From IMG/VR virus record IMGVR_UViG_3300042367_000066, positions 1-64,000 of that record: a stretch of DNA of 64,000 bases; one strand, 5' to 3'. The notes beneath the pieces were generated by a model. That model was not told the origin of the DNA. It was given only the letters and a program-made list of their open reading frames with translations, and did no database searches. This DNA comes from a virus. The position numbers were made by a program, and so were the translations under genes. Below are positions 1 through 64,000 of this stretch, in pieces. Position 1 is the first letter of the stretch. The number at the start of each line of letters is the position of its first letter.

Positions 1-55
1 GTACCCATACTGATATGCAGATTAATATTAATACTGCCCATACAATTCCTTTCAT
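1..55 (-). CDS. 25-residue membrane peptide gene (partial, runs off left edge)
   Basis: Start codon at 55-53; eighteen codons are visible before the window ends. The peptide starts MKGIVWAVLILIC and is almost entirely hydrophobic, so it should be a single membrane-spanning segment. The bases are identical to the complete gene at 63459-63536. It begins 17 nt downstream of the ribozyme at 72-124 with the AT-rich leader typical of these genes. Function unknown. The C-terminal end lies outside the window. Confidence 0.6.
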   Translation of the reverse strand, partial: MKGIVWAVLILICISVWV

Positions 56-71
56 AATAAATATATTTAAT

Positions 72-124
72 GGTTAAGACACCCACTTGGGGTGTTTCGA
101 TCATTTAGATCTCGTCAGTTAACC
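72..124 (-). ncRNA. Type I hammerhead ribozyme (copy 1)
   Basis: Read on the minus strand from 124: stem I strand GGUUAA; core CUGACGA; stem II GAUC, loop UAAAU, GAUC; core GAA; stem III ACACCC, loop CAAGU, GGGUGU; cleavage nucleotide C17; stem I return UUAACC. All invariant hammerhead core bases are present and all three stems pair perfectly. Stem I is the open stem, so this is type I. Cleavage is expected between minus-strand bases 78 and 77. It lies between the stop of the 73-residue gene (132) and the start of the 25-residue peptide (55). Confidence 0.93.
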
Positions 125-131
125 TTTTGTA

Positions 132-353
132 CTATTTTTTTAATTCTACTTCTGTTTGGCTATAATCCATATCAATTGTCAATCCATTCGTAATGTCGCA
201 GTTGTCAAAAACATCATTACATTTTCTAATGTCATATTTTAGTTTTGCAATTGCTTTTTCTCTTGCTTCATCTAAGCTATCCGCTTCAACTTCTCCATAA
301 TCAAATGAAGTCCAAATTGTTTGTGTTGAATTACTGTAAGTGTAAAGTGCCAT
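132..353 (-). CDS. Small acidic phage protein of unknown function (73 aa)
   Basis: An acidic 73-residue protein beginning MALYTYSN with a central Asp/Glu/Lys-rich helix (SLDEAREKAIAKLKYD) and no membrane segment or cysteine motif. The ATG at 353 is preceded by an A-rich stretch, and the TAG at 134-132 lies only 7 nt from the outer edge of the hammerhead at 124-72. It is part of the leftward mini-gene array. I do not recognise a family. The amphipathic pattern and the arrangement argue that it is real. Confidence 0.7.
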   Translation of the reverse strand: MALYTYSNSTQTIWTSFDYGEVEADSLDEAREKAIAKLKYDIRKCNDVFDNCDITNGLTIDMDYSQTEVELKK

Positions 354-354
354 A

Positions 355-459
355 ATTTCTGTTTTTTAGTTATTAATTTGTCTACATCATATTTTCCTTT
401 ATAAGCTATCTCAAGGAGGGAACGTGTCAAACCCCTCTGAAGACCGTCATAGTGTTAAC
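355..459 (-). other. Intercistronic spacer with hairpin and GTTAAC motif, no ribozyme core
   Basis: This 105-nt spacer occupies the place where other gaps in the array carry a hammerhead. It starts right after a TAG stop with GGTTAAC, the same junction (TAGGTTAAC) that begins the ribozyme at 63864, but no CUGANGA or GAAA core follows. A 5-bp hairpin GAGGG/CCCTC is visible at 414-435. One minus-strand frame is open and protein-like from about 448 across the whole spacer but lacks an ATG. It could be a decayed ribozyme site or a frameshifted gene remnant. Confidence 0.35.
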
Positions 460-654
460 CTATCTTCTAAATCCGAATGCATCTCCTAGATCGTTTACAT
501 AGTACACTGCATTCGACGTGTAACTTCCATATATAGCGCCTCCCGTTGATAGTGCTACTATTAAGAAGCAGGCTCCCGCATTTTTTCTAGCCTTAACTAG
601 TTTAGTGAAGTTTTCGTTTGTAATCTCATTTGCTTTGTTGATAATTGATGTCAT
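460..654 (-). CDS. Small membrane protein (64 aa), first gene of the leftward array
   Basis: I choose the ATG at 654 (MTSIINKANEIT) because it follows the typical AT-rich leader and lies 13 nt past the end of the type III ribozyme. A longer frame from 693 would start inside the ribozyme core. The protein has a charged N-terminus followed by a hydrophobic segment at about residues 25-42 (AGACFLIVALSTGGAIYGSY) and a short polar tail. Function unknown. With the promoter at 899-906 it appears to be the promoter-proximal gene of the leftward arm. Confidence 0.6.
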   Translation of the reverse strand: MTSIINKANEITNENFTKLVKARKNAGACFLIVALSTGGAIYGSYTSNAVYYVNDLGDAFGFRR

Positions 655-667
655 AATAAATAGTATT

Positions 668-721
668 AAACGTTTCGCCATTCTGTGGCTCATCAGTAAG
701 GATACACATCCTTATACGTTT
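668..721 (-). ncRNA. Type III hammerhead ribozyme
   Basis: Minus strand from 721: stem III AAACGU; cleavage nucleotide A17 at 715; stem I UAAGGAU, loop GUGU, AUCCUUA; core CUGAUGA; stem II GCCA, loop CAGAA, UGGC; core GAA; stem III return ACGUUU. Every core base is present and every stem is perfectly paired. Stem III is the open stem, giving type III topology. Cleavage is expected between 715 and 714. The 3' product keeps most of the ribozyme as the 5' UTR of the gene starting at 654. Confidence 0.93.
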
Positions 722-898
722 CTAAACCAATTACAAGACTCCCACCTTGCAATCTTTATAACACCTATTCGATGCTGTTTACATTTCGCTCTTCACGGCT
801 CCTAATCCGCTTATAACACCTGTTTGTTCAGTAGAGTGGTTATGGTTACACTTAAACCTCCGTCACTTTTTAAAACTGTGATCTCGTTTTCAACACTG
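722..898 (-). other. Untranslated leader of the leftward arm
   Basis: No open frame with protein character is visible. The leftward transcript from the promoter at 899-906 would cross this stretch before reaching the type III ribozyme. On the plus strand it holds two copies of TTATAACACCT, at 757-767 and 811-821, 54 nt apart. They could be protein-binding sites or halves of an RNA fold. Nothing else is recognisable. Confidence 0.4.
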
Positions 899-906
899 CA
901 AACATA
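899..906 (-). promoter_or_regulatory. Bacteroidota-type promoter for the leftward arm
   Basis: The minus strand reads TATGTTTG, a match to the Bacteroidota -7 element TAnnTTTG, with TTG-containing sequence about 20-30 nt upstream in an AT-rich tract. It is correctly placed to start leftward transcription towards the ribozyme at 668-721 and the gene at 654. It is the best match on this strand in the whole intergenic region. Confidence 0.55.
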
Positions 907-1736
907 CGACAACTATCAATTACAATCCTAATTTTTAACAAATATTTAACATTTGGCTCGGTTTTATTGGGCTCAGAAGGTATAGAATTTTAACAAACAT
1001 ACTAAGTTATTGATAACGTGTGAGTTATGAGATTTCTCTATTTTTTAATAATAAGTACACGCGCGTGAGGGGACTTGTTTTATTGCTCGTGTGAGGATCT
1101 CTGAACACAAAAACATATAATTTCGTACTGTACGCAAGATTATGCTCTCTCAAGCCAACAAACGTGTTCAAAACGTCGGTGGAATGTAAGCAAAACCTCG
1201 GGAAGTCCCTAGAATGTAAAGGTGGCGTTAAAAATGTAAAGAAATGTAAACTTTTTTTAAACTTTACATCGCGCTAACCCTTGGTATCATTGACTTAAGC
1301 CTCAAAAATGTAAGAATGTAAACTTTACTCCCTTCTTCACAGCGAAAAAAATATATATATTATAATAATTATCTATAGGCTGTATATAGGGTATAAACCC
1401 GCATTTCTACATTTTACTACGTAATCGTAGTGATATCAACGGCTCACACGATGTAACGGTTCCAAATACATTACATTTGCTTTACATTTCCTTACATTTA
1501 TTCTACATCGGAGCGCGTCATCGCCCGTAAACATGGGGCAACGTGGCGGGAATACCACCTAGTTGACGTGTGGTCTGGAGAGGTACCCACCTGGCACCCC
1601 AGGAAAAGCCTAGAAATCTGGAGGGAAATCTTGCTTTTGGTACCCCAGGGGTCTAAAAAGAATCGGTTTCCATTTTGGACGGCTCACGCAAACTCAATAT
1701 ATAACCCAACACCTAAAAATTTATAATATTTTTTTA
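907..1736. other. Intergenic region between the two divergent arms
   Basis: About 830 nt without a convincing gene. It contains the iteron and AT-rich cluster annotated separately and a second repeated word, CGTGTGAG. That word occurs at 1017-1024 and 1088-1095, with the related GCGTGAG at 1063-1069. It is inverted as CTCACACG at 1443-1450, and in part as GGCTCACG at 1681-1688. A palindrome CACGCGCGTG lies at 1058-1067. The stretch 1501-1690 is richer in GC and holds two similar blocks around GGTACCC and GGTACCCC, possibly a structured or protein-bound region. Confidence 0.5.
1183..1498. other. Putative replication origin: inverted AATGTAAA iterons around an AT-rich core
   Basis: AATGTAA(A) occurs in forward orientation at 1183, 1213, 1233, 1243, 1307 and 1315. 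The reverse form (T)TTACATT occurs at 1471-1477, 1481-1488 and 1492-1498; the shorter TTTACAT occurs at 1263-1269. Between the two clusters lies a run of nearly pure A/T at 1345-1375, suited to strand opening. The cluster sits exactly between the divergent transcription arms. Oriented initiator-binding iterons beside an unwinding element are typical of theta origins. A transcriptional operator array is the main alternative. Confidence 0.5.
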
Positions 1737-1744
1737 TATCTTTG
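1737..1744 (+). promoter_or_regulatory. Bacteroidota-type promoter of the rightward arm
   Basis: TATCTTTG matches TAnnTTTG. Only four bases separate it from the ATG at 1749, so with the usual spacing the transcript would start at or within a base or two of the start codon, giving a leaderless mRNA. A long A/T tract precedes it. Confidence 0.65.
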
Positions 1745-1748
1745 TACC

Positions 1749-1886
1749 ATGGAAATAGAAATTCAAAACAGATTTAACATCGGTCCATCTATAGGATGGG
1801 GATTCTATCCGATAGACGAAGATTATGACGACAACGAGTTGATCATTTATTTAACATTTATAAGTATACATTTCAGATGGGTATAA
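1749..1886 (+). CDS. Small conserved-looking phage protein (45 aa)
   Basis: A 45-residue frame starting MEIEIQNRFNIGPSIGWG and ending in a hydrophobic, aromatic segment (NELIIYLTFISIHFRWV). The shape, an N-terminal GxSIGWGFY-like stretch followed by a hydrophobic strand and terminal aromatic residues, resembles short proteins seen in many Bacteroidota phages, though I cannot name a family. The promoter at 1737-1744 directly abuts its ATG. It overlaps the next gene by 10 nt. Confidence 0.65.
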   Translation: MEIEIQNRFNIGPSIGWGFYPIDEDYDDNELIIYLTFISIHFRWV

Positions 1887-2059
1887 ACAAGAAGATGCCA
1901 GTTCAAGAGATTGGCTTGTACAGGATGGCAAAAGAGAAAAAGGCCATGCACGAGAGAAAAGAGATTGTAGAGGAGTCTATGATGATGGCTAGCGCCATGG
2001 CAATGTCAAAGGAGATGAAGGCTCCTATGCACAACATCATAATGAAGAAGAAGAAGTAA
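1877..2059 (+). CDS. Lysine- and methionine-rich small protein (60 aa)
   Basis: Sixty residues, very basic and unusually rich in methionine (about a dozen Met, clustered in the second half) with a C-terminal run of lysines. It starts inside the end of the preceding 45-residue gene, suggesting translational coupling. A rho-independent terminator follows 32 nt after the stop. Predicted largely helical; possibly nucleic-acid binding because of charge, but this is inference. Confidence 0.6.
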   Translation: MGINKKMPVQEIGLYRMAKEKKAMHERKEIVEESMMMASAMAMSKEMKAPMHNIIMKKKK

Positions 2060-2091
2060 GTTCACCTCTCATTCGAGTGGAAGAAATCATT

Positions 2092-2124
2092 AAACGCATA
2101 GCTTAAATGTTATGCGTTTTTTTT
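2092..2124 (+). terminator. Rho-independent terminator
   Basis: AAACGCATA, a ten-base loop, then TATGCGTTT running into a tract of eight T residues. It closes the first two-gene unit, and the next promoter starts two bases later. Confidence 0.8.
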
Positions 2125-2125
2125 G

Positions 2126-2133
2126 TATATTTG
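2126..2133 (+). promoter_or_regulatory. Bacteroidota-type promoter upstream of the sponge/chaperonin operon
   Basis: TATATTTG matches TAnnTTTG and lies 25 nt before the ATG at 2159, immediately downstream of the terminator. Terminator and promoter back to back give independent control of the genes from 2159 on. Confidence 0.6.
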
Positions 2134-2158
2134 TCGCATATAATTTAAATTAAATAAA

Positions 2159-2386
2159 ATGGAATTAACATTCGGTGAAAAACTAGTTGGACTAACATTC
2201 AACCCATCAGGAGATGAAAAAGTACAAAGAGCAAAGGAGCTATGTGCTGAACTAGCAGATTTATTAAATCAAAATGCAGATCCAAATCCTGAAAGACCTT
2301 TGTGTAGATTATTATTTGACAAAGCCATTGGAGACATTCTAGATGCACAGATGAATGTAGTTAAAGTATTAACTTTTAATTACTAA
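2159..2386 (+). CDS. Acb2/Tad1-hairpin-like protein, candidate cyclic-nucleotide sponge
   Basis: The 75-residue protein begins MELTFGEKLVGLTFNPSG and ends with ILDAQMNVVKVLTF. This is the pattern I associate with the Acb2/Tad1 hairpin domain: an N-terminal FGxKxVGxxFNPSGD, an acidic-hydrophobic helix (AKELCAELADLL), and a C-terminal AQMxxVKxLT helix. Characterised Acb2 proteins form hexamers that bind and hide the cyclic oligonucleotides of CBASS and in some cases Thoeris signals. Length fits a single-domain sponge. It sits two bases before groEL behind its own promoter. Identification rests on pattern memory, not on a search. Confidence 0.6.
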   Translation: MELTFGEKLVGLTFNPSGDEKVQRAKELCAELADLLNQNADPNPERPLCRLLFDKAIGDILDAQMNVVKVLTFNY

Positions 2387-2388
2387 TC

Positions 2389-3996
2389 ATGGAAGAATTT
2401 GGATACAGTCCCAAGGAACTACTGTTCGACGAGGAAGGAAGAGCAAAACTAATTACAGGCATAACTACAATTGCCAAGGCGGTTAAGAGCACGCTAGGAC
2501 CAAGGGGTCGTACGGTTCTGATCGAGTCACCGAACCATACACATGGTATCACAGTTACAAAGGATGGGGTAACGGTTGCTAAGTCAATCTTCTTGCTAGA
2601 CCCAGTGGAGAACCTAGCCGTCAAGATGATGAAGGAGGCAGCAGATAGGACAGCCACCAGTGCTGGAGATGGAACCACAACAGCCATCGTGCTTACGGAG
2701 GCAATCGTGAGACAGGGTCAGGAGCTCTTGAACGAAAAACACAACGTGACCGAGGTGATCAAGAACATCAACAGCGTTTCAAACGGTATCATCCACAGCC
2801 TTGAGAGATCATCCAAGAAGGTGAGTGGAAAGACGCTGCACAACGTGGCATCTATCTCGGCCAACAACGACAACGAGATCGGTAAGATCATATCAAACGC
2901 ATACACGAAGGTTGGTAAGAATGGGATCGTAACGATCGAGAACTCACAGACTGCTGAGACCTACTCAGAGTTCACGAATGGGATCAAGATCGGAAGGGGT
3001 TACACCTCGAACATGTTCGTGAACGACTTCAAGAACGACGAGTGCATCATGGACGATGTGTTGGTGCTGGTTACAGACCAGGAGATATCCAACATCCTGT
3101 CGATAGAGGGGGTTCTAAAGACGGTGATACAGGAGAACAAGAAGCTGCTCATCATAGGACCATGCAACCAGAACGTGATCAACACGCTGGCAGTCAACGT
3201 GGTGAAGAACAAGCTGAAGTTCTGTAACATTGCACCACCAGAGTTCGGTTACAAGATGAACGAGCTGATGAGCGACATCGCGCTGTCTTTGGGTGCGAAG
3301 TACTTCTCGGAGAGCACAGGAGACGACCTAAGTCTGATATCAATAGAGGATTTAGGTAGGGCAGAGAGGATCATAATAGGAAGGGATACTTCGTCCATCA
3401 TCAAGCCAGAGAGCAAGCAGCAGGACGTAGACGACAGAGTCAGTCAGCTGTGGGTAGCTCACGAGGCTGCACAGAAGAAGCAGGACAAGGAGTTCATCAA
3501 GAGTAGGATTGCCAGCCTTACAGGTAGCATCGCTGTTATATACGTGGGAGGTAACTCTGATTTGGAGCAGAAGGAGAGAAAGGACAGGGTAGACGACGCG
3601 GTATGCGCGGTAAGGTCTGCACTAGAGGAGGGGATCCTTCCAGGAGGAGGCTTAGCCTTGTTCAACGAGTCCTACAGAATCATTGTAGACGCAGATGACA
3701 TGATAGAGGACATCAGTGCGGAGCAGTACGTAGCTATGCAGATCATGGCAAGGGCTATACAGGCACCGTTGTTGCAGATCCACGAGAACGCAGGTAACGA
3801 TGGGTACGAGATCATGACTGGATGTGCATCAAACACGAACACTGGGTACGACGTTAAGAACGACGTGTACGGTAACATGTACGATATGGGGATCATAGAC
3901 CCACTGAAGGTTACGAAGAACGCGCTTAAGAACGCTGTCAGTGTGGCCACAACAATACTTAGTACTAACGCAATTATAACAATGACACGAGCATAA
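2389..3996 (+). CDS. groEL: Phage-encoded GroEL chaperonin
   Basis: A full-length 60-kDa chaperonin of 535 residues. Visible motifs include TLGPRGR (35-41), DGVTVAK (59-65), the nucleotide-binding AGDGTTT (92-98) and LPGGGLALF near residue 418. The glycine/methionine-rich C-terminal tail of bacterial GroEL is absent; the protein ends NAIITMTRA. Codons are visibly richer in G and C than in the flanking genes, which suggests separate acquisition. Together with the GroES-like gene at 4527 it would give the phage its own folding cage, most likely for capsid or other large virion proteins. Confidence 0.96.
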   Translation: MEEFGYSPKELLFDEEGRAKLITGITTIAKAVKSTLGPRGRTVLIESPNHTHGITVTKDGVTVAKSIFLLDPVENLAVKMMKEAADRTATSAGDGTTTAIVLTEAIVRQGQELLNEKHNVTEVIKNINSVSNGIIHSLERSSKKVSGKTLHNVASISANNDNEIGKIISNAYTKVGKNGIVTIENSQTAETYSEFTNGIKIGRGYTSNMFVNDFKNDECIMDDVLVLVTDQEISNILSIEGVLKTVIQENKKLLIIGPCNQNVINTLAVNVVKNKLKFCNIAPPEFGYKMNELMSDIALSLGAKYFSESTGDDLSLISIEDLGRAERIIIGRDTSSIIKPESKQQDVDDRVSQLWVAHEAAQKKQDKEFIKSRIASLTGSIAVIYVGGNSDLEQKERKDRVDDAVCAVRSALEEGILPGGGLALFNESYRIIVDADDMIEDISAEQYVAMQIMARAIQAPLLQIHENAGNDGYEIMTGCASNTNTGYDVKNDVYGNMYDMGIIDPLKVTKNALKNAVSVATTILSTNAIITMTRA

Positions 3997-4238
3997 TGGG
4001 ATTATATAGAAAAAAACCAGTAGTAATTGAAGCAATTCAATGGGATGGAAATACTGAACCAATGTTAGATTTTTGCAAAAGCGCTGAATTTATAGATGGG
4101 GAGCTATACATTCAAACCTTAGAAGGTAATATGAAAGCATCAATAGGTGACTTTATAATAAAAGGAGTACAAGGAGAGTTTTACGCTTGCAAACCAGATA
4201 TTTTTAACTTAACATACGAAAAAGAATTATGGAAGTAA
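3996..4238 (+). CDS. PGDYG-like small phage protein
   Basis: Eighty residues beginning MGLYRKKPVVIEAIQWDG, with LEGNMKASIGDFIIKGVQGE and FYACKPDIFNLTYE further on. This layout (YRKKPVVIEAxQW, then a GD(Y/F)IIxGVxGExYxCKPDIF core) is that of the small PGDYG family common in phages, whose role is unknown. It shares one base with the end of groEL and overlaps the next gene by 10 nt, so it belongs to the chaperonin operon. Confidence 0.75.
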   Translation: MGLYRKKPVVIEAIQWDGNTEPMLDFCKSAEFIDGELYIQTLEGNMKASIGDFIIKGVQGEFYACKPDIFNLTYEKELWK

Positions 4239-4525
4239 CAACAATCACCAACGGATCATCGCTTTATAGCGGAATAGGAACAACAACAGGTACAACATCA
4301 GGGTTGTATATAACACCAGAAAACAAAATGAAGCAAGTAAAGGTTGCAATATTCAACGTAACAAGAGATGAGAATTACGATATAATAGACTCTACATTTG
4401 ACCAAGAGGTATGGGTTTGTCAGAAGAAAGGGGTATCGCTAGAGGTCGCCACAATGAAGCAGCTAGGGTACGTAATAGATCCAGACAAGCAAGTCATAAG
4501 AGAGTTCTTATCAATAACAATATAG
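4229..4525 (+). CDS. Hypothetical protein between groEL and groES (98 aa)
   Basis: Ninety-eight residues. The first 25 are rich in Thr, Gly and Ser (TGTTSGLYITPENK), and the rest looks like a compact alpha/beta domain with one cysteine. The start overlaps the PGDYG-like gene and the stop lies two bases before the GroES start. I do not recognise it; its position suggests co-expression with the chaperonins. Confidence 0.7.
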   Translation: MEVTTITNGSSLYSGIGTTTGTTSGLYITPENKMKQVKVAIFNVTRDENYDIIDSTFDQEVWVCQKKGVSLEVATMKQLGYVIDPDKQVIREFLSITI

Positions 4526-4526
4526 T

Positions 4527-4784
4527 ATGCAGCCAATCAATAAATACTTAGTAATCAACACAATAGAGGAGCAGATGAGGACCCAGTCGGGTCTGCTGCT
4601 CACTGGAAACGAGACAGAACAGTTCAGGTACAAGAAGGGAGAGGTTGTGAAGCCTGGAACTAACGTGGACTGCGTGAAGGAGGGAGATATAATATACTAC
4701 GACAAGAACGCTGGTTACACGATGCTGGTAAACGACATCAAGTACACAGTGATCATGGAGAGAGACATCGTGGTTGTCCTCTAG
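4527..4784 (+). CDS. groES: Phage-encoded GroES-like co-chaperonin
   Basis: Eighty-five residues, slightly shorter than bacterial GroES (about 95). It begins MQPINKYLVIN, followed by a mobile-loop-like segment (TQSGLLLTG), then VKPGTNVDCVKEGDIIYYDKNAGY and a last strand YTVIMERDIVVV, the typical GroES order. The domain is the lid of the GroEL cage. It lies in the same operon as groEL with two small genes between. It converges with the minus-strand gene 4781-5245, overlapping by 4 nt. Confidence 0.85.
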   Translation: MQPINKYLVINTIEEQMRTQSGLLLTGNETEQFRYKKGEVVKPGTNVDCVKEGDIIYYDKNAGYTMLVNDIKYTVIMERDIVVVL

Positions 4785-5245
4785 ATCTTCTGATCCTCTA
4801 TATCCTTGAGCCTCTTGAGTTCCTTACGCGTACGATTCATCTTACGAATAATGGGCCTGGAGGCTCTCTCGGTATAGGAGGCGTCGGTCCTGAACATCGG
4901 GTTAGAGACTGGGTTCTCTGAGACGTGAACCTTGAGCTCTATCTTCTCGTATATGTCTGTTATAACCCTGCGAGTCTTGTAGGAGGCCTCGTACAGGGCA
5001 GCCTCACCGTTCTTGTTCGGTCTCCAGAGCGTGATCCACCCGTCGGCTATCATTCGCTTGAATCGGTCCTTCTCCCAGGTTAGTCCAGACTCGAACTCCC
5101 AGAACTGTCTGTGACGGAAGTACCCCTCGCTGTAGACGAAAAGGAGGATATCGATGTCGGAGCTGCTTAGGTTGTACTTGTGACGAATGAGCGTCTTTAT
5201 TGCCCTCCAGTACTTGAGGTAGTCTGCGTATGGCTTGTATTTCAT
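4781..5245 (-). CDS. MarR-like winged-helix protein
   Basis: One of very few minus-strand genes inside the rightward arm (154 aa). Residues 15-100 read as a winged-helix domain: LSSSDIDILLFVYSEGYFRHRQFWEF, a recognition-helix-like TWEKDRFKRMIADGW, then a wing with LYEASYKTRRVITDIYEKIEL, the usual MarR end. The C-terminal 50 residues are basic. A DNA-binding regulator is the likely role, perhaps acting at the palindromic promoter 16 nt upstream. It converges on groES. Confidence 0.65.
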   Translation of the reverse strand: MKYKPYADYLKYWRAIKTLIRHKYNLSSSDIDILLFVYSEGYFRHRQFWEFESGLTWEKDRFKRMIADGWITLWRPNKNGEAALYEASYKTRRVITDIYEKIELKVHVSENPVSNPMFRTDASYTERASRPIIRKMNRTRKELKRLKDIEDQKI

Positions 5246-5260
5246 TTGATTTATTATTAT

Positions 5261-5276
5261 TATCTTTGCAAAGATA
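5261..5276. promoter_or_regulatory. Palindromic back-to-back promoter (TAnnTTTG on both strands)
   Basis: The 16 bp TATCTTTGCAAAGATA is a perfect palindrome and reads TATCTTTG in both directions. It lies between the minus-strand regulator (start 5245) and the plus-strand gene at 5285. It may act as two overlapping promoters whose polymerases exclude each other, or as one promoter inside a dimer-binding operator. Confidence 0.7.
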
Positions 5277-5284
5277 AAACATTT

Positions 5285-5560
5285 ATGATGGCAAAAACAG
5301 CGGCTTGGACCAGAAAAGAAGGAAAGTCAGCATCGGGTGGGCTTAACGAGAAGGGCGTGGCCTCATACAGGAAGGAGAACCCAGGAAGTAAGTTGAAGAT
5401 GGCAGTAACAAAGAAGCCATCGGAGTTGAAGGCTGGTAGCAAGGATGCCATGAGACGCAAGTCATTCTGTGCACGAATGTCAGGGATGCCAGGACCGATG
5501 AAGAAATCAAACGGAGAGCCAACAAGAAAGAAACTAGCTTTAGACAAATGGAACTGTTAA
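5285..5560 (+). CDS. DUF6321 family protein, copy 1
   Basis: A basic 91-residue protein with TAAWTRKEGKSASGGLN near the start and SFCARMSGMPGPMKK plus [12 protein letters not shown] at the end, the pattern of DUF6321 in phages of Bacteroidota and others. A second copy at 23718-23987 is about nine-tenths identical in protein but has many silent differences in DNA, so both copies are kept by selection. The AWT and FxARMSGM motifs and high charge suggest nucleic-acid contact; the function is unknown. Confidence 0.85.
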   Translation: MMAKTAAWTRKEGKSASGGLNEKGVASYRKENPGSKLKMAVTKKPSELKAGSKDAMRRKSFCARMSGMPGPMKKSNGEPTRKKLALDKWNC

Positions 5561-5751
5561 AGAGAAAAGACGGGAGCACCTCCAAGAGAGGACTATGGGA
5601 CAACATCAGAGCAAACGAAGGATCTGGAAAGAAGCCTACAAAGGCTATGTTAGAGCAAGAGAAGAAGATCAAGAAGAAAGCAAGTCAGTACGAGTCAGCG
5701 AAGTCGTTGAACGGAAAGATGTCATACCTAAAAGGAAACGTAAAAAAATAG
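5548..5751 (+). CDS. Basic small protein (67 aa), [17 protein letters not shown] type
   Basis: Sixty-seven residues, overlapping the end of the DUF6321 gene by 13 nt. It begins [20 protein letters not shown], is strongly basic and helical ([13 protein letters not shown]), and resembles short phage proteins that follow DUF6321 genes elsewhere. No enzymatic motif is visible. It belongs to a run of very basic small genes from 5285 to 6763. Confidence 0.7.
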
Positions 5752-5755
5752 AGTC

Positions 5756-5893
5756 ATGCCATTGAAAAAGGGAAGTAGTCAGAAGGTAATATCAGCAAAT
5801 ATAAAGATGGAGTTGAAAAAAAATCCATCGATGAGTCAAAAACAAGCAATAGCAATCGCCTTATCTAAGGCAGGTAAAACAAAGAAAAAATGA
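5756..5893 (+). CDS. Very small basic protein (45 aa)
   Basis: The 45-residue frame begins [20 protein letters not shown] and includes [19 protein letters not shown], a pattern (KGSS.KVIS.NI..E...G.....AIAIAL.KAG) recurrent in tiny proteins of many phages, usually near structural genes. The function is unknown. The next gene starts inside its last codons (5890). Confidence 0.75.
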
Positions 5894-6003
5894 AAAAAGT
5901 ATCAGCAAAGTGTTCGTCTAAGATGACTAAAAAAGAAGTGAAACCAGTTCAGAAAAAAGAGAAGTTTGACTTCATGAAGATGATCGCGAACAAGAAGAAG
6001 TAA
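5890..6003 (+). CDS. Very small lysine-rich protein (37 aa)
   Basis: Thirty-seven residues starting [18 protein letters not shown], with about one third lysine and one cysteine. It overlaps both neighbours (4 nt with the preceding gene, TAATG with the next), which supports real translation. No family recognised. Confidence 0.55.
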
Positions 6004-6278
6004 TGCCAGGAAGGACAGCCAAATACTACGCAGCTAACCCAGAGGCTAAGAAGAAACACAACGACTACCAGAAGGAGTACAACAAGTCCCCTGATCAGGT
6101 AAAGAAGCGTGTCGAACTTAACGCTATTAACAGAAAACGTGGCACGTACGGTAACCAAGACGGACTAGATGCTAGCCACACAAAGAGTGGTGTAGTTATG
6201 AAGAGCGCGTCATCAAATCGCGGATCTAAATGTGCTATGCCTGGAGACAAGAGAGCAAGAGGAACTAAAAACAAATAA
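6003..6278 (+). CDS. Basic small phage protein (91 aa), NRKRGTYGNQDG type
   Basis: A highly basic 91-residue protein: KYYAANPEAKKKHNDYQKEY, then NRKRGTYGNQDGLDASHTK and a Ser/Lys/Arg-rich tail. This order recalls a conserved family of small basic proteins in many phages, sometimes loosely labelled HNH-like, but the histidines and asparagines do not form a clear HNH motif here. Possibly a DNA-binding virion component. Confidence 0.7.
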   Translation: MPGRTAKYYAANPEAKKKHNDYQKEYNKSPDQVKKRVELNAINRKRGTYGNQDGLDASHTKSGVVMKSASSNRGSKCAMPGDKRARGTKNK

Positions 6279-6280
6279 AA

Positions 6281-6763
6281 ATGGCATACAAGAGAATAGA
6301 CCCTACATTTAACAAGGATCCAGAAATTAAGAAGACTACTATTCAGAATCCAGATGGTACAACAACGTATAGAGACACATGGTCTTCAAAAAAACCAGCC
6401 AGGTCGTCATCGTTTAAATCACCTGAAGCAAAACAAGGGGCAAAAACAAGTTACGTAGCTAAGAAGTCTACTCCTGCACAGACTACATCTGGATCTAGAG
6501 AGATAACATCAATACCGTCACTAAAGCCAGTTGGTACAATGTCTAAAGAGATAACTGCTCCTGTAGATATTAAAGTTCCAGTAAAGACTGCTACAAGAAA
6601 GGAAAGGTTTGAGAGCGATAAGTCAACTTGGCAGAAGGATCACCCTGGAAAGGTCTGGGAGGATAGATATAAAGACACTGAGACATCTAAAACTGAAAGA
6701 GAGTGGAAGGGTGGAGGAATTTTTAAAGAAAAAAAAGCAGTAAAACTTTGTAAAACTTGTTAA
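6281..6763 (+). CDS. Low-complexity basic protein (160 aa)
   Basis: Rich in Lys, Thr, Ser and Pro, with little predicted fold (RIDPTFNKDPEIKKTTIQNP at the start, a repetitive middle). It ends in a short cysteine motif CKTC. It sits in the operon of basic small proteins two bases after the preceding stop. No family is recognised; a minor virion or DNA-associated protein is only a guess. Confidence 0.65.
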   Translation: MAYKRIDPTFNKDPEIKKTTIQNPDGTTTYRDTWSSKKPARSSSFKSPEAKQGAKTSYVAKKSTPAQTTSGSREITSIPSLKPVGTMSKEITAPVDIKVPVKTATRKERFESDKSTWQKDHPGKVWEDRYKDTETSKTEREWKGGGIFKEKKAVKLCKTC

Positions 6764-6764
6764 T

Positions 6765-6923
6765 ATGCTACTAGGAGATAGAATAGAACAGATAACAACA
6801 GCAACTGGAGTTAAGAAGGTTGTAGAGAAGGTTGCCAAGGCAGCAAACAAGGACTGTGGATGCGCAAAGAGAAAAGAGGCGCTAAACAATCCAGATCTAT
6901 TAATTAATAAAATATTAAAGTAA
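6765..6923 (+). CDS. Small CGC-motif protein (52 aa)
   Basis: Fifty-two residues: MLLGDRIEQITTATGVKK, a lysine/alanine-rich helix, then DCGCAKRKEALNNPD. The pattern (LGD.I..IT..TG......K........CGC..R...LN) matches a widespread family of tiny phage proteins of unknown role, in which the CxC pair is conserved. The stop shares bases with the next start (TAATG). Confidence 0.7.
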   Translation: MLLGDRIEQITTATGVKKVVEKVAKAANKDCGCAKRKEALNNPDLLINKILK

Positions 6924-7189
6924 TGGCATATCAAAAATTACAGCAGACCAGAGCAAAGGCGGTAGTAAAGTCTGACACAGTAGACATAACAACCCCAAGC
7001 TCAGAAGACGGACTATCAGTAGAACCTTGTGTACTTTACACAGGATCAGGAGGTACGATTCGTGTGCTTACAGCAGGAGGAGACGACGTGACGTTGGCAT
7101 CAGTTCCAGCAGGAGTTGTTCTACCAATACAGATAGTTCGAGTATTCTCATCAACAACAAACGCGACTGGTATGGTTGCCCTTTGGTAA
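6923..7189 (+). CDS. Small beta-rich protein, possible virion component (88 aa)
   Basis: An 88-residue protein with alternating hydrophobic strands (LSVEPCVLYTGSGGTIRVLT, then PAGVVLPIQIVRVFSSTTNA). The strand-turn pattern and its lack of catalytic motifs fit a small structural or decoration-type protein seen in many phages next to lysis genes. Function not known. Confidence 0.65.
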   Translation: MAYQKLQQTRAKAVVKSDTVDITTPSSEDGLSVEPCVLYTGSGGTIRVLTAGGDDVTLASVPAGVVLPIQIVRVFSSTTNATGMVALW

Positions 7190-7190
7190 G

Positions 7191-7373
7191 ATGAGCAGGG
7201 AGCAGATAGACGTAATACTGAACAAGTTTATAAGCAGAAAGCTACTAGTTTTTGCAATAGCTTGTATGGCACTATTCGCAGGTGACCTAACGTCTCAGGA
7301 CTGGGTTGTTATAGCAACTGCCTATATTAGTATTCAAGGATTTACGGACATAGTAAAATCACTGAAGAGCTAA
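7191..7373 (+). CDS. Small membrane protein, holin candidate (60 aa)
   Basis: I start at the ATG at 7191 (MSREQIDVILNKFISRK), one base after the preceding stop. The hydrophobic segments LLVFAIACMALFAG and WVVIATAYISIQGFTDI give one to two membrane spans in 60 residues. Placed directly before a second membrane protein, a DUF5675 lytic-type enzyme and a spanin, it is a holin candidate. Confidence 0.6.
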   Translation: MSREQIDVILNKFISRKLLVFAIACMALFAGDLTSQDWVVIATAYISIQGFTDIVKSLKS

Positions 7374-7567
7374 TGGAATCAACTAGGCTATACATAATAA
7401 ACTCGTTAACATTCTTTATTACGTTTACAAACATTGAGAATACACTGAAGATACTGTTGCTGTTATTATCTATTATATACACTGCGGTTAAAATTTACGA
7501 AATATTTAAGAGAAATGAAGATAGAAGTAAAGAGATTACACAGGACAGAGAACTCGACGATAGGTGA
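7373..7567 (+). CDS. Small membrane protein of the lysis cassette (64 aa)
   Basis: Sixty-four residues with one or two hydrophobic spans (IINSLTFFITF; TLKILLLLLSIIYTAVKIY) and a strongly charged C-terminus (KRNEDRSKEITQDRELDDR). It overlaps the start of the DUF5675 gene by 53 nt. It could be a second holin, an antiholin or a membrane anchor; the sequence alone does not decide. Confidence 0.6.
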   Translation: MESTRLYIINSLTFFITFTNIENTLKILLLLLSIIYTAVKIYEIFKRNEDRSKEITQDRELDDR

Positions 7568-7898
7568 GCTAACCATTGACGGAAAGTTTGAGTGCTACAC
7601 CTTAGAGGATAAGGAGAGAGATGTAAAGATAAAGAGAGAGACAGCAATACCTAAGGGTACGTACAAGGTTATAATCAACCAGTCAAACAGGTTCAAGAAG
7701 CTGCTACCATTATTAATAAACGTTCCTAACTTCGAAGGAATTCGTATACACCCTGGTAACTCGAATCACGACACAGAGGGTTGCATACTTGTTGGAATGA
7801 ATAGATCAGTTGACTACATCACAAAGTCAAGGAAGGCTTTCGACTCTTTGTTTAAAAAGATGCAAGGCGCTAAGAATATAACCATAACCATATCATGA
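7515..7898 (+). CDS. DUF5675 protein, probable cell-wall enzyme
   Basis: A 127-residue protein with the DUF5675 signature: TIGELTIDG and CYTLED near the start, AIPKGTYKV (45-52), NVPNFEGIRIHPGNSNHDTEGC (69-90) and ILVG. The His79 to Cys90 arrangement (IHPGN...TEGC) recalls the active site of L,D-transpeptidase-like enzymes, and the family often lies in phage lysis modules. Here it lies between membrane proteins and a spanin, so it is the best endolysin candidate in the window. The catalytic role is inference. Confidence 0.75.
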   Translation: MKIEVKRLHRTENSTIGELTIDGKFECYTLEDKERDVKIKRETAIPKGTYKVIINQSNRFKKLLPLLINVPNFEGIRIHPGNSNHDTEGCILVGMNRSVDYITKSRKAFDSLFKKMQGAKNITITIS

Positions 7899-8383
7899 CA
7901 AATCATAATAGGAACTACATATACTTCTGGATATGTATTTTAATATCAACATTGGCAGTGTTGCTAGCATCATGTTCTACTAGGAAGGTAGTGATAGATG
8001 AGGTTAAGAAGGATTCTGTGTCGCAAATATCGGTTAAAATTGCGACAAAAGAGGTTGTCGATGTCAAGAACGAGACAGATATATTTATAGAGGAGTTCAC
8101 AGTAACTCCACTAGACACGTGTAAAGACATAGTAATAGATGGTAAGGTTTACAAGAACGTTACTATTAACTATAAAAAGACAAAAGACAAGTCTGTATAT
8201 ACCGAGAAAAAAATAGAGTCTAAAATCGAAGATAAACAACAAACTATAACAGTTGTTGAAAAAATAAAAAAGAAAGAGGTTGATAGGACATCCTTAAATA
8301 TTCTCTGGATAATAATAATATCACTTATAATAGTATTATGGCTAAACAAACAGTATCTATTAAGTCTGTTAAGAAGGATATAA
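7895..8383 (+). CDS. Unimolecular spanin candidate (lipoprotein with C-terminal membrane span)
   Basis: 162 residues. The N-terminal signal has a lipobox L24-A25-S26-C27, so Cys27 would be lipidated and placed in the outer membrane. The middle (30-130) is charged and beta/coiled in character. The C-terminus carries a membrane span at about 134-153 (LNILWIIIISLIIVLWL) for the inner membrane. One protein tied to both membranes is the u-spanin design that completes lysis of diderm hosts. It follows the DUF5675 enzyme with a 4-nt overlap. Confidence 0.75.
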   Translation: MTNHNRNYIYFWICILISTLAVLLASCSTRKVVIDEVKKDSVSQISVKIATKEVVDVKNETDIFIEEFTVTPLDTCKDIVIDGKVYKNVTINYKKTKDKSVYTEKKIESKIEDKQQTITVVEKIKKKEVDRTSLNILWIIIISLIIVLWLNKQYLLSLLRRI

Positions 8384-8472
8384 ATAGACCAGGAGTACAC
8401 TCTAAAAATTCATCGTCTAAATTAAAATCTAGTAAAAACTATAAAAAATCCTATAAAGGACAAGGAAGATGA
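8338..8472 (+). CDS. Small basic protein overlapping spanin and fibre genes (44 aa)
   Basis: Forty-four residues, Lys/Ser-rich (MAKQTVSIKSVKKDINRPGV, then HSKNSSSKLK). Its start is inside the spanin gene and its stop shares four bases with the start of the 1153-residue fibre. It resembles other tiny basic K/S-rich phage proteins. Supported mainly by the tight overlaps. Confidence 0.6.
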   Translation: MAKQTVSIKSVKKDINRPGVHSKNSSSKLKSSKNYKKSYKGQGR

Positions 8473-11400
8473 CAAAAATAAGTGTTTATAATATAGATGA
8501 GTACGTAACGGCAGACGACAAGTGGATAGGAACGGACGTAAACACGTATAATAAGACTAAGAACTTTACTCCAAGGAAGCTATCACATTACTTTAACAAC
8601 AACCAGGTAATAAATACTGGTGTAGATCTACTGTACAAGTACTTCACAATAACTCCTCCAGAGACAAGGCCTACTGGAACACTGTCATTTGAGACAGAGA
8701 TAGGGCCTACAGTTAATTTCTCTGCAATAAGCACGTTCCTACTTAGTAACACAACACTAAAGGGAAACTACATAGTAGAGTTCTTTGATTTCTTGGTTGG
8801 TACAAATGTTTTAATGTACAAGGCTAAGAATATAAACCTGTTCGGAAGCTACAAGATATTGTCTGTAGAAGAGTATCTACCAGAGCCTAACTTCCTTGTT
8901 GTAAACATAGAGTTTATAGAGGGTAACGGATTTATAGAAGAGGACGAGGACTACATGATATCACTTATAGATATTAGTAGCGGAGGTGGAGGATCTCAGA
9001 ATCTTCAACAGGTTACAGATGAAGGATCGACTACTACTAATCCTATAACTGCTGCGTCATTTATAAAGCAAGGCGGAACAGGAACTAATATATTATTAGA
9101 TAATGGGAACACTGTTTCCTTATCTTCTATTGGTGGTAACACAAACTTATCTACGTCTCAGACTGCAAGTAACTTTACAATTAATAGCGATACTGGTACA
9201 GACGCAAGTGTTCCTTTAGGAAATGGAACTTTAGCAGGAGCTACTTTAAATGATTATACAACTGCTGAAAAGAATAAATTAGGTGGCATTGCACCTGGTG
9301 CAAACGTAGGTGTTGTACCAAATTCTCCTATAACTGGAGCGACAAAGACAAAGATAACATACGACTCTAAAGGACTTGTTACAGCAGGAGTAGACGCAAC
9401 CACAGCAGACATAACGGACTCAACAAATAAGAGATACGTGACAGATGCAAACTTGACTGTTCTAGGAAACACAAGCGGTACAAATACTGGTGACCAAAAT
9501 TTACAACAAGTTACTAATTTAGGTGCAACTACTACTAATCCAATAACTATTACTGTTGGAGATGTAGGAGCAAATGGTATTACTTCATATTCATCTCAAG
9601 GATATGGTGTCAGAGGAGAATCAAGCGAAAATTATGGTGTTTATGGAATTTCAACATCGACAGCAGGTGTTTATGGAACTTCAGAAAGTGGATATGGCGT
9701 TGAAGGATATTCTGAATCAGGAATAGCTGTACGTGGTTCGGCTATAACAGGATATGGCATAGAATCATATTCTTATAGTGGAAGAGCAATATCTGCAACT
9801 TCTGATATTGGAACTGGTTTATATGCTAATTCTGAATTTATTGGAGCATCTATTTATTCTAATGGAATAGGCTTACAGGTAAATGGTAATGGTACAATAG
9901 CTATTGACGTTATTTTAGGTAACTCAAATAAAGGACTTGTTATTAACAGTGGAACATCTTCAACAGGTAATTTTATAGAGTTAGCAAAAAATTCAGTTAA
10001 TAAACTAACAGTAAACCAAGCAGGAGAGTTAATTGCGCAAAAATTAATAAAAGAGGGGGGATTTGATAATCAATTCCTAAAGGCCGATGGTTCAGTTGAT
10101 AATAATACATACCTAACCTCTGCTGATTTACCATCTACATTAGATCTATACGCCACAACATCACCTGACCCAGTTATACCAGGATATACTGCATTAGTTA
10201 GAAACATAGCCGATTCAAGATATAATACAACTGCGGTTGACGTACCAACTCCTACAATTACTGGTACTTTAGCATCTCCTACGTTTTGCGGAGCAGTAAT
10301 TAGTGATCCTAGTATCTTATTAGGTAATCCTGGAGTATTTAACTTCTCAGTAATTGGTAAGATAAGAAGAACAGGCGGTTCTACATCTAGTGGTGCAGAC
10401 TTCTTTTATAGCATTTATAAGAGAGATACATCAGGAGTTGAAACATTAATAGCAGATAGCGCTCCAGTTGCCGTACCTGCTAACGGAGGAATTTATATCG
10501 AGTATATTTCAATAGCATTATGGAATAATGGTATCTTCTTAAGTACGGATAGAGTAGTTTTAAAATTCTATGGAATTCAATCAGGTACAGGTAGTGGAGC
10601 TACTTATGAGTTTCAATTTGGAGGCGCTGACCCAGTAAGGGGTACAGCGGCAATATCTTCTGCAATAATACCTAACATTTACTTAAAGGATTTAGCTGAT
10701 GTTGAGAAAACCCCAGCATTGAACAATGAGGTGTTGTATTGGAATGACTCTGCTTCGCTATGGGAACACTCACTAGTTGAAAATTTAGTTCCAGATGCAA
10801 GTGCAACTCAGAAGGGATTAGTTACAACAGGAACGCAAACATTTGCTGGAGCAAAAACATTTACAGGAGCAATAGGCGCAAGTAATTTAAGTGGAACAAA
10901 TACAGGTGACCAAGACTTACAGTCTGTTACAACTAAAGGAGCAAGTACTACTAATGCAATAACCGTTACTTCTTCCGTCATCGCTATAACAGGTAATTCC
11001 ACTGAGCAAATCGGCGTATATGGGACTTCTGTTTCAGGCACAGGAATAGCTGGAACTTCTATTGATGATGTGGGTGCATATGGAAGCTCTACTAACGCAG
11101 TAGGAGGAGTTTTTAATACTGTCAACGGTGCTAATATTGCTCAATTTCAAACAGGCTTTGATATAAAGGCAACAGTTAAAGCTGATGGAACTTTTGCAGG
11201 AACAGGATTAAACGCTTCAGGACAAACTATAAACACCATAGCTTCATTTGACGCTAATAAAAACGTAGTTAGTTTATCTACCGCAACCTATCCAAGTCTT
11301 ACTGAATTAGCGCTATTAAAAGGAGTTTCAGGAAGTTCTGTTCAAACACAATTAGATGGAAAACAAGCTACATTATCATCTACTGTAAACATTAAATCTA

Positions 11401-11930
11401 TAAACGGAAATGATATTTTAGGAAGTGGCAATTTAACTATAACTGCAGCTCCTGAAGAATTAGCAGCTTTTAGAATGTTGGCTAATAATTCAGCAGTAAC
11501 AGCAGTCCCAACAGTACAAGTTTTTAAAGATATAGGGGAACAAGATTATATCTTGTCGCCTACATTTACTCCAATTACTGGACCTACAAATATTATTTCA
11601 AATACATATAAATATGAACAAGTAGGTAGTTTAGTAACTGTTAGAGTAAATTTAATTTATACTACTGCTGGAAGTATTTCACAGGTTGTTATTCCATTGC
11701 CTGCAGATATGCCAACTCCATTAGCTCCAACGGGATTAGGTGCGGCATTAGATATTTTGTACTATGGCGTGGGTATGTTTAACACTTTAACAACTTCGAT
11801 AGCAACTGTTGGTAGAACTTGTCTTTTAAGAAGAAATGTAACAAATACTGGATATGAGTTTGTATTAACACATTCAACGGCAGTATCATCAAGAGTAATA
11901 TCTTTAACCTTACAATACTTTACAGAATGA
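8469..11930 (+). CDS. Large tail fibre / receptor-binding protein (1153 aa)
   Basis: The N-terminus (MTKISVYNIDEYVTADDKWI, then GTDVNTYNKTKNFT) matches that of the 589-residue protein at 12930 and is probably the virion-attachment part. A module reading LQ(Q/S)VTxxGxxTTNxIT occurs three times (about residues 179, 345 and 818). Gly/Tyr/Ser repeats of the form VYGTSESGYGVEGYSESG follow the second. A DUF-like beta domain lies near residues 590-750, and the C-terminus (about 1040-1153) looks like a globular tip. The repetitive beta-rich build is that of a trimeric fibre recognising the host surface. Confidence 0.85.
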   Translation: MTKISVYNIDEYVTADDKWIGTDVNTYNKTKNFTPRKLSHYFNNNQVINTGVDLLYKYFTITPPETRPTGTLSFETEIGPTVNFSAISTFLLSNTTLKGNYIVEFFDFLVGTNVLMYKAKNINLFGSYKILSVEEYLPEPNFLVVNIEFIEGNGFIEEDEDYMISLIDISSGGGGSQNLQQVTDEGSTTTNPITAASFIKQGGTGTNILLDNGNTVSLSSIGGNTNLSTSQTASNFTINSDTGTDASVPLGNGTLAGATLNDYTTAEKNKLGGIAPGANVGVVPNSPITGATKTKITYDSKGLVTAGVDATTADITDSTNKRYVTDANLTVLGNTSGTNTGDQNLQQVTNLGATTTNPITITVGDVGANGITSYSSQGYGVRGESSENYGVYGISTSTAGVYGTSESGYGVEGYSESGIAVRGSAITGYGIESYSYSGRAISATSDIGTGLYANSEFIGASIYSNGIGLQVNGNGTIAIDVILGNSNKGLVINSGTSSTGNFIELAKNSVNKLTVNQAGELIAQKLIKEGGFDNQFLKADGSVDNNTYLTSADLPSTLDLYATTSPDPVIPGYTALVRNIADSRYNTTAVDVPTPTITGTLASPTFCGAVISDPSILLGNPGVFNFSVIGKIRRTGGSTSSGADFFYSIYKRDTSGVETLIADSAPVAVPANGGIYIEYISIALWNNGIFLSTDRVVLKFYGIQSGTGSGATYEFQFGGADPVRGTAAISSAIIPNIYLKDLADVEKTPALNNEVLYWNDSASLWEHSLVENLVPDASATQKGLVTTGTQTFAGAKTFTGAIGASNLSGTNTGDQDLQSVTTKGASTTNAITVTSSVIAITGNSTEQIGVYGTSVSGTGIAGTSIDDVGAYGSSTNAVGGVFNTVNGANIAQFQTGFDIKATVKADGTFAGTGLNASGQTINTIASFDANKNVVSLSTATYPSLTELALLKGVSGSSVQTQLDGKQATLSSTVNIKSINGNDILGSGNLTITAAPEELAAFRMLANNSAVTAVPTVQVFKDIGEQDYILSPTFTPITGPTNIISNTYKYEQVGSLVTVRVNLIYTTAGSISQVVIPLPADMPTPLAPTGLGAALDILYYGVGMFNTLTTSIATVGRTCLLRRNVTNTGYEFVLTHSTAVSSRVISLTLQYFTE

Positions 11931-57775: not shown

Positions 57776-57779
57776 CTTT

Positions 57780-57909: not shown

Positions 57910-57914
57910 TGCTG

Positions 57915-63111: not shown

Positions 63112-63289
63112 CTATCTCTTGAAATATTTGTTCTGTAATCCAATCACTATTCAATACTTGCTCTAGTATGTCATAAGCCTCGTCGTCTGTGCACTCGTGA
63201 TATTGTTTAACATCTTTTATGTGCCAAAGGCTACCCGTACAGTAACCCGCTTCCTTAAGTATAGCCTTCGCTTGTTTTATTTTGTCCAT
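63092..63289 (-). CDS. Hypothetical protein (65 aa)
   Basis: MDKIKQAKAILKEAGYCTGS, then LWHIKDVKQYHECTDDEAYD. The LWHxxDVxxxxxxTDDEAxxIL pattern is widespread among tiny phage proteins, often with a conserved Trp-His pair; function unknown. Confidence 0.75.
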   Translation of the reverse strand: MDKIKQAKAILKEAGYCTGSLWHIKDVKQYHECTDDEAYDILEQVLNSDWITEQIFQEIDDTTKI

Positions 63290-63462
63290 GATGTGATAAA
63301 GTTTTTATAGTCGTTATAAATATAAAACACCGTCTGCTCAAACGTGCAGTCAGGTTGATAGATGTTTGGAGCATACTCCTTAATGATGGCGGTCACTTGC
63401 TCCAATGTTGGAACCTCGTCCTTGTACGTGTCAGCGATGTGCTGATAGATTGATTTCTTCAT
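63277..63462 (-). CDS. Hypothetical protein (61 aa)
   Basis: Start at 63462 (MKKSIYQHIADTYKDEVPTL), whose ATG overlaps the stop of the mini-gene upstream (ATGA). Helical, acidic and Tyr-rich (FEQTVFYIYNDYKNF). An upstream extension of the open frame lies across the mini-gene and ribozyme and is not used. Confidence 0.65.
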   Translation of the reverse strand: MKKSIYQHIADTYKDEVPTLEQVTAIIKEYAPNIYQPDCTFEQTVFYIYNDYKNFITSWTK

Positions 63463-63536
63463 AGTATTGATTTTATAATTAGTACCCATACTGATATGCA
63501 GATTAATATTAATACTGCCCATACAATTCCTTTCAT
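63459..63536 (-). CDS. 25-residue membrane peptide
   Basis: Complete copy: MKGIVWAVLILICISVWVLI and a short tail IKSIL. One hydrophobic helix, no signal peptide. The ATG lies 17 nt after ribozyme stem I; the TGA overlaps the next gene's ATG (ATGA), a coupling that argues strongly for translation. The WAVxLxLI segment resembles the peptide at 63864-63941. Possibly an antiholin, a small membrane regulator or a defence/exclusion peptide; this is open. Confidence 0.65.
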   Translation of the reverse strand: MKGIVWAVLILICISVWVLIIKSIL

Positions 63537-63607
63537 AATAAATATATTTAATGGTTAAGACACCCACTTGGGGTGTTTCGATCATTTAGATCTCGTCAGT
63601 TAACCTT
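63482..63607. repeat. 126-bp exact direct repeat, copy 2
   Basis: Identical to positions 1-126; includes the complete ribozyme 63553-63605 and 18 codons of the peptide gene. The identity ends at the outer edge of ribozyme stem I, where the upstream genes differ (132-353 versus 63600-63791). A recent cassette duplication or an assembly effect. Confidence 0.9.
63553..63605 (-). ncRNA. Type I hammerhead ribozyme (copy 2)
   Basis: Base-for-base the same as 72-124: stem I GGUUAA/UUAACC, core CUGACGA and GAA, stem II GAUC with loop UAAAU, stem III ACACCC with loop CAAGU, C17 at 63559. The stop codon TAA of the upstream gene lies within stem I (63602-63600), so the reading frame ends inside the ribozyme. 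Cleavage is expected between 63559 and 63558. Confidence 0.93.
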
Positions 63608-63809: not shown

Positions 63810-63864
63810 GGTTAATACACCCCGTAGTGGGGTGTTTCGGATACTTAATCCTCATCAGTTAACC
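63810..63864 (-). ncRNA. Type I hammerhead ribozyme (diverged copy 3)
   Basis: Minus strand from 63864: stem I GGUUAA; core CUGAUGA; stem II GGAU, loop UAAGU, AUCC; core GAA; stem III ACACCCC, loop ACUAC, GGGGUGU; A17 at 63816; return UUAACC. Invariant core is complete. Stems II and III differ from copies 1 and 2 by compensating changes, so pairing is conserved while sequence is not, the mark of a functional RNA. The GUA cleavage site is also permitted. Confidence 0.93.
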
Positions 63865-63941
63865 TAGATTATTGATATTAAAGTTAGAAATACTGCCCAT
63901 AGTACTAGGGCAAGTCCGATGTCTTTTAGGTTCTTATCCAT
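63864..63941 (-). CDS. 25-residue membrane peptide (relative of 63459-63536)
   Basis: MDKNLKDIGLALVLWAVFLT, then LISII and TAG. One hydrophobic segment after a short charged start; the LWAVFLTLI segment is similar to VWAVLILI of the duplicated peptide. The G of its TAG is the first base of ribozyme stem I. Same size and same neighbour relation as the other mini-gene, so they look like one family. Confidence 0.6.
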   Translation of the reverse strand: MDKNLKDIGLALVLWAVFLTLISII

Positions 63942-64000
63942 AGATTCCAAATGTTAGGTGGGAGCACTCTCCCGTTACTAATCCTACTACTACTCTTAAA
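63942..64000 (-). other. Right-edge fragment: hairpin and possible C-terminal end of a gene
   Basis: Two minus-strand frames remain open to the window edge and would end within the start of the next mini-gene; neither can be chosen on 59 bases. A perfect 5-bp hairpin GGGAG/CTCCC with four-base loop is present at 63961-63974. No ribozyme core is seen here. Confidence 0.3.

Follow-up and report, generated by a model that had tools for sequence, protein, structure and literature searches.

An array of predicted hammerhead ribozymes between tiny genes at the head of an early operon in a virus of flavobacteria

Four canonical hammerhead ribozymes (HHRs) are located on the minus strand of the 64,000-nt stretch of viral DNA analyzed here (the window), where they head a single early operon. 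The array consists of one type III copy and three type I copies, designated A, B, and C. By sequence and predicted fold the four elements are hammerhead ribozymes, and self-cleavage is predicted for them (Table 1). We infer that they are probably active in the cell, where they would cut an early polycistronic transcript into insulated small mRNAs.

Table 1. Coordinates of the ribozyme array and its genes in the window
Feature	Position	Strand	Basis or remark
-7 element TATGTTTG of the Bacteroidota-type promoter for the leftward early operon	899..906	-	exact TAnnTTTG
5′ leader, ~185 nt, that type III cleavage would remove	715..898	-	between promoter and predicted cut; length inferred
Type III HHR	668..721	-	RF00008 43.2 bits, E 4e-6 for the window; fold; orthologs
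Predicted cut of type III HHR	between 715 and 714, after GUA	-	body remains downstream as 5′ hairpin
First gene, MTSIIN..., 64 aa	460..654	-	ORF 13 nt past HHR; ortholog in L140
HHR-less junction, begins TAGGTTAAC like a type I HHR, core lost	354..459	-	no Rfam match; fold z +0.7
Small gene MALYTY..., 73 aa	132..353	-	ORF; phrog_35246, function unknown
Type I HHR B	72..124	-	RF00163 25.2 bits; fold; predicted cut 78/77 after GUC
Probable assembly spur, copy of 63482-63537, foreign to the circle here	1..56		end repeats
3′ part of 41-aa gene MNTFEK... (record 63934-64059)	63934..64000	-	begins 16 nt past HHR B; read across true join
25-aa hydrophobic peptide gene MDKNLKDIGLALVLWAVFLTLISII (MDKNLK...)	63864..63941	-	ORF; overlaps MNTFEK gene
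Type I HHR C	63810..63864	-	core and stems; fold z -3.25; predicted cut 63816/63815 after GUA
Small gene MDKKNE..., 63 aa	63600..63791	-	stem I of HHR A is formed by its final codon and stop (GGT TAA)
Type I HHR A	63553..63605	-	RF00163 25.2 bits; fold; predicted cut 63559/63558 after GUC
25-aa hydrophobic peptide gene MKGIVWAVLILICISVWVLIIKSIL (MKGIVW...)	63459..63536	-	ORF; overlaps MKKSIYQ gene
Gene MKKSIYQ..., 61 aa, opens the downstream operon conserved in relatives	63277..63462	-	position after array

All four copies contain the core CUGANGA ... GAAA and an NUH cleavage site (GUA or GUC), and the minimum-energy structure of each is the exact hammerhead fold with three stems (z -2.1 to -3.3). 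A finder that requires core, stems, and NUH site was run on the whole record; it scored the four HHRs at 15-17 and returned nothing else, while 20 mononucleotide shuffles of the record gave one match at score 13 and zero at ≥14. Rfam detects three of the four copies, all below the gathering score (43.2 versus 48.5 for RF00008, 25.2 versus 34 for RF00163). HHR C is absent from the Rfam listing, although its canonical core and all three stems are complete. Gathering scores are curation cut-offs, not biochemical criteria, and since no copy reaches them, the case for the HHRs rests on core, fold, and relatives. HHR A and HHR B are identical in sequence. A match to the RAGATH-1 hammerhead (RF03152) at 73-145 was set aside, as it scores 31.1 bits versus a gathering score of 56.3 and a plain type I description is enough. 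The original prediction of four HHRs at these positions is confirmed, with all copies on the minus strand. It had also placed each HHR 13-18 nt before a start codon, which agrees with the distances from HHR end to ATG (13, 16, 16, and 18 nt), and each type I copy at the stop codon of the preceding gene. The latter is correct for C, which overlaps TAG, and for A, which holds an in-frame GGT-TAA; it is loose for B, which begins 7 nt past TAG.

The full record is 64187 nt long, and its ends fall inside an HHR repeat. Positions 57-183 equal 64061-64187 (127 nt) and positions 1-126 equal 63482-63607, so that the true circle, as read from these repeats, joins 64060 to 57. The repeat lengths are consistent with opening of the circle within the repeated ribozyme by a k = 127 assembly. 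An apparent fifth HHR at 64076-64128 of the record was rejected, being the same copy as that at 72-124 seen through the assembly overlap. The join is backed by a related locus, L140, in which a type I HHR directly precedes MNIFEK, the ortholog of the join-straddling MNTFEK gene; on its other side this HHR is preceded by the ortholog of the MTSIIN gene. Because the record was opened inside a repeat, the circle has to be closed for genes at the two ends of the window to be read correctly. Once 64060 is joined to 57, HHR B precedes the 41-aa gene that crosses the window end, and the HHRs lie close together, as had been proposed for a circular genome.

Read 5′ to 3′ in the RNA, the order is TATGTTTG (906-899), leader, type III HHR, MTSIIN, HHR-less gap, MALYTY, B, MNTFEK/MDKNLK, C, MDKKNE, A, and MKGIVW/MKKSIYQ. 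The presence of TATGTTTG bears out the promoter that had been proposed at 899-906, upstream of the HHRs. Genes within a block overlap or abut, and the ribozymes separate the blocks; the long early operon after MKKSIYQ contains no further HHRs. The proposal that a single operon of tiny genes contains several HHRs between its cistrons is supported, and the layout recurs in relatives. When compared with Pfam and PHROG, the tiny array genes matched no family above cut-off, MALYTY (phrog_35246) excepted. Homologs of the MDKNLKDIGLALVLWAVFLTLISII peptide (MGQNLKDIG.../MKQNLKDIA...) are found in L117 and L120. The core of the type III HHR contains an AUG in frame with the first gene (window 652-693, MSHRMAKRLILFIM...), as is also the case in L117, L118, L119, and L140 despite a differing first gene. 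A longer product made before cutting or from cut RNA is possible. Elsewhere, the window encodes a GroEL-like chaperonin (2389-3996, phrog_5725), an early phage gene with a ferredoxin-like 4Fe-4S cysteine pattern (61133-61435, CINCGLCEPVCPNNAIYEP), and an odd tRNA with an unclear anticodon loop (57914-58007, ATCA), near which lies a weak tRNA-like match (57712-57776).

The junction at 354-459 looks like the left edge of an insertion bearing the MALYTY gene. It starts with TAGGTTAAC, L140 carries an intact type I HHR at the equivalent point after the ortholog of the MTSIIN gene, and the segment 125-459 that carries the 73-aa MALYTY gene has GGTTAAC at both borders, its far side included; together, these features suggest an insertion that broke or replaced a type I HHR. 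Another ribozyme class was considered for 354-459 and rejected, as no Rfam match was found, the fold is no better than that of shuffles, and relatives contain no similar DNA; given L140, an insertion edge is simpler.

The window is from a virus of flavobacteria. Its major capsid protein is 68% identical to that of an uncultured podovirus, 56% to that of Maribacter phage Panino, and 49% to those of the Flavobacterium elemo phages, and its cultured relatives belong to Elemovirus, Callevirus (Pervagoviridae), and Baltivirus (Pachyviridae). Rfam hammerheads are present in 10 of 47 related or pattern-matched viral contigs; a BLAST search with a single ribozyme against phage records gave weak partial matches only. 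Five loci (L117, L118, L119, L120, and L140) share the layout of a type III HHR followed by type I HHRs between differing tiny genes. The MKKSIYQ gene directly follows the last HHR in the window, L117, and L119, and comes one gene later in L118, L120, and L140. A gene a few positions downstream of the array, MILQKYRRQ, was found in four surveyed contigs, all four of which carry arrays.

At the head of the operon, relatives have a conserved flavobacterial promoter, a 120-190-nt leader, and then the type III HHR; in L117-L120 and the elemo phages, a TAnnTTTG element followed by GCAGTGTT sits 127-187 nt before it. The type III orthologs of L117-L120, L140, and the elemo phages differ by compensatory stem changes. 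The elemo phages share this promoter, and stem II of their type III copy is compensated; the 401-nt stretch with this leader ribozyme is ≥99% identical in 68 of 68 elemo records, which come from one laboratory host, Flavobacterium sp. BAL314. A plausible type I copy, bulged in stem III, lies further down in elemoB. Stem II of this copy is intact in elemoB (NC_062741.1, 17240-17264) and broken in the near-identical elemoF (MT497071.1, 16072-16096). With the tools used here, no HHR was detected in MW202828, Maribacter phage Panino, or Cellulophaga phages phi38:1 and phi13:2. As some close cultured relatives show none, the wider group can do without the arrays.

Arrays also occur elsewhere. A survey pattern that fixes the core and four stem I bases per side matched at least 120 viral stretches, and 65 in genome contigs. 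Two or more same-strand HHRs flank individual genes in the window and at least 33 other loci, and at least 15 of the listed loci have three or more. The arrays are always on the coding strand. The largest comprise eight HHRs (L269) and, according to the finder, nine (the contig behind L127). L269 lies in a metagenome-assembled genome labelled Aliivibrio and is probably a binned phage; it and L317 (contig 1-12000), with eight and nine HHRs, contain near-identical small genes in differing order. As the pattern ignores pairing in stems II and III, stem pairing serves as an independent test. Both stems have at least 4 bp in 142 of the 164 distinct viral matches listed, compared with 0.2% in shuffled loops, and all pair types occur at most positions of the two stems in these matches. 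In the genome contigs both stems are paired in just 18 of 72 matches, which marks most of those as chance. In the viral matches listed, a variable stem II is capped by a conserved U-N-A-N-U pentaloop (loop II), which suggests a tertiary contact, possibly with loop I.

The type I copies are precisely placed between stop and start codons. Of the 153 distinct type I copies listed with an upstream ORF of at least 30 aa, 105 have an upstream stop that starts inside stem I or at the core UGA (2.6% at random positions), and in 148 this stop lies no more than 14 nt from the core. The fixed TTAAC of the pattern favors one stop, and copies that do not fit the pattern behave alike (6/11 inside, 11/11 near). 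On the other side, 139 of the 164 copies listed have their next ATG 18-27 nt past the cut. Upstream of the AUG, these 164 copies are enriched in A at -3, -6, and -11 to -13 (78% A at -3, 82% at -12, 66% at -13), and just 31 of them have a Shine-Dalgarno-like motif. This profile matches the initiation determinants described for Flavobacterium johnsoniae, which comprise these A signals as well as low structure and a lack of nearby AUGs (PMC9976891, PMC8710568). Cutting off the type I body would remove structure and, in most cases, the AUG of CUGAUGA from the downstream mRNA, which fits these determinants.

In the proposed mechanism, the four HHRs would cut one early polycistronic transcript during or just after transcription, yielding separate small mRNAs. 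Cleavage by the head copy would remove the ~185-nt leader and, because this copy is of type III, would leave its body as a hairpin at the 5′ end of the first mRNA. The intercistronic copies are of type I, so their bodies would instead stay on the upstream mRNA, where stems II and III would form a hairpin end just past the stop codon. The downstream mRNA would begin with a short, unstructured 5′-OH leader of 18-27 nt that bears the A-rich signal by which flavobacterial ribosomes initiate. Stem I would be unfolded by any ribosome arriving at the stop codon, which means that cutting has to outpace translation. With cutting, every gene or pair of genes would acquire ends of its own, independent of its neighbors. 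Such ends would insulate a variable set of small accessory genes, inserted behind the promoter and ahead of the conserved replication operon. We infer cleavage, hairpin protection, and insulation from the sequences, folds, placement, and conservation. Processing is favored by the minimum-energy folds, the shuffles, the stem pairing, the stop and start placement, the layout in relatives, the coding-strand orientation, and a published precedent (PMC3088659); the sub-threshold Rfam scores, the cultured relatives that show no HHR, the broken stem II of elemoF, and the race with translation count against it. More tentatively, Bacteroidota phages in general may use a cassette format, each unit of which joins an A-rich leader and a small gene to a type I HHR whose first bases are the stop of that gene, with self-cleavage replacing promoters, terminators, and Shine-Dalgarno-based spacing. 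This generalization is possible, with the odds against it. If it holds, units could be inserted, lost, and reordered between promoter and essential operon while the ends and translation of their neighbors stay unchanged.

The HHRs might also cut without any regulatory use and act as compact modular spacers that persist and spread by providing a stop, a neutral cut, and a start leader, their near-identical sequences also giving homology for cassette shuffling. B and A are indeed identical over ~70 nt within one genome, GGTTAAC flanks the MALYTY insertion on both sides, and L269 and L317 share 84-100% identical genes in a different order, with the neighbor kept at none of six shared HHR junctions. 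Over all comparisons the neighbor is kept at 15 of 77 junctions with an HHR versus 61 of 189 without, but this difference in synteny is modest and the comparisons are non-independent; HHR junctions as preferred breakpoints were rejected on the same grounds. The type III head copy, moreover, holds its place while the genes change. Stems II and III vary in sequence yet stay paired, which points to selection on the fold rather than on DNA homology, and a role purely as spacers is considered unlikely.

A different use of cleavage would be the formation of circular or trans-ligated RNAs, in which fragments lying between two type I copies, with UUAACC at the 5′ end and a ribozyme bearing GGUUAA at the 3′ end, are religated by the ribozyme or an RNA ligase. 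All three type I copies of the window share stem I, so the ends of different ribozymes are compatible, and perfect cross pairings are more frequent within arrays (84%) than between arrays (58%). Stem I is nevertheless non-identical in 13 of 34 arrays, several of them incompatible (L122, L129, L131, L116), no RNA ligase was recognized among the few window proteins scanned, and spliced or circular products were sought in an earlier study of phage hammerheads and not found (PMC3088659). Such religation is very unlikely.

The main role could finally be the production of small RNAs, with the leader as one of them, or a switch in which ligand, ions, or translation would control cleavage. In all relatives the promoter and the type III HHR are separated by a leader of comparable length, and because stem I contains the stop codon, cutting could be inhibited by ribosomes that terminate there. 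The leader sequence, however, differs among relatives (L117 versus L118), and the ribozymes have no aptamer-like extension, their loops being short and of constant type, which makes this role extremely improbable. That the HHR-like sequences are inactive relics or chance, as their scores below the Rfam gathering thresholds and the damaged elemoF copy might suggest, is scarcely credible in view of the shuffle and covariation tests and the conserved core and placement.

Processing of a phage early transcript between its genes is familiar from T7, whose polycistronic early mRNA is cut by RNase III to leave hairpin ends. The difference is that T7 is cut by a host protein, whereas here the RNA itself would cut. 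Phage hammerheads had been regarded as known singly in the original prediction, which is wrong, since Perreault et al. published clustered hammerheads flanking single phage genes in 2011 and proposed single-gene mRNA processing (PMC3088659). They demonstrated tandem-array cleavage in vitro, and the triple from Agrobacterium tumefaciens was cleaved in E. coli (PMC3088659). Phage hammerhead clusters and the processing idea have been reviewed (PMC6155905), and an association with other ribozymes has been noted (PMC10085705). No report of the layout described here was found in the open-access literature searched, which is not proof of absence, and stop-codon placement is unmentioned in the main text of PMC3088659. 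The purpose of phage and bacterial hammerheads is a question that dates back to 2011. The strict layout, with the stop codon inside the ribozyme, the start codon about 22 nt past the cut, and type III ahead of type I, gives precise predictions in place of a vague notion of processing. The elemo phages, which are cultured and carry the same leader HHR, make the purpose of the arrays testable, and the damaged intercistronic copy of elemoF compared with elemoB provides a natural test.

Among single elements, HHphage of haloviruses HF1/HF2 (PMC3088659) resembles the head copy in lying 13 nt before the first early gene start, with a transcript 5′ end near the cut, but it is single, has a variant core, and belongs to an archaeal virus. 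The closest clusters are those of prophages in Clostridium scindens, Azorhizobium caulinodans, and A. tumefaciens, the last being a triple around ardA (PMC3088659). As in the window, mixed-type HHRs flank single phage genes or short blocks whose gene identity is variable. Unlike these clusters, the arrays described here belong to uncultured relatives of virulent Flavobacterium podoviruses, stand at the head of the early operon, and combine type III at the head with type I between genes and a stop built into the ribozyme; in other phages surveyed here they reach up to 8-9 copies. Clustered phage HHRs and the idea of processing are thus already published, and the strict layout and its wide recurrence appear to be the new part.
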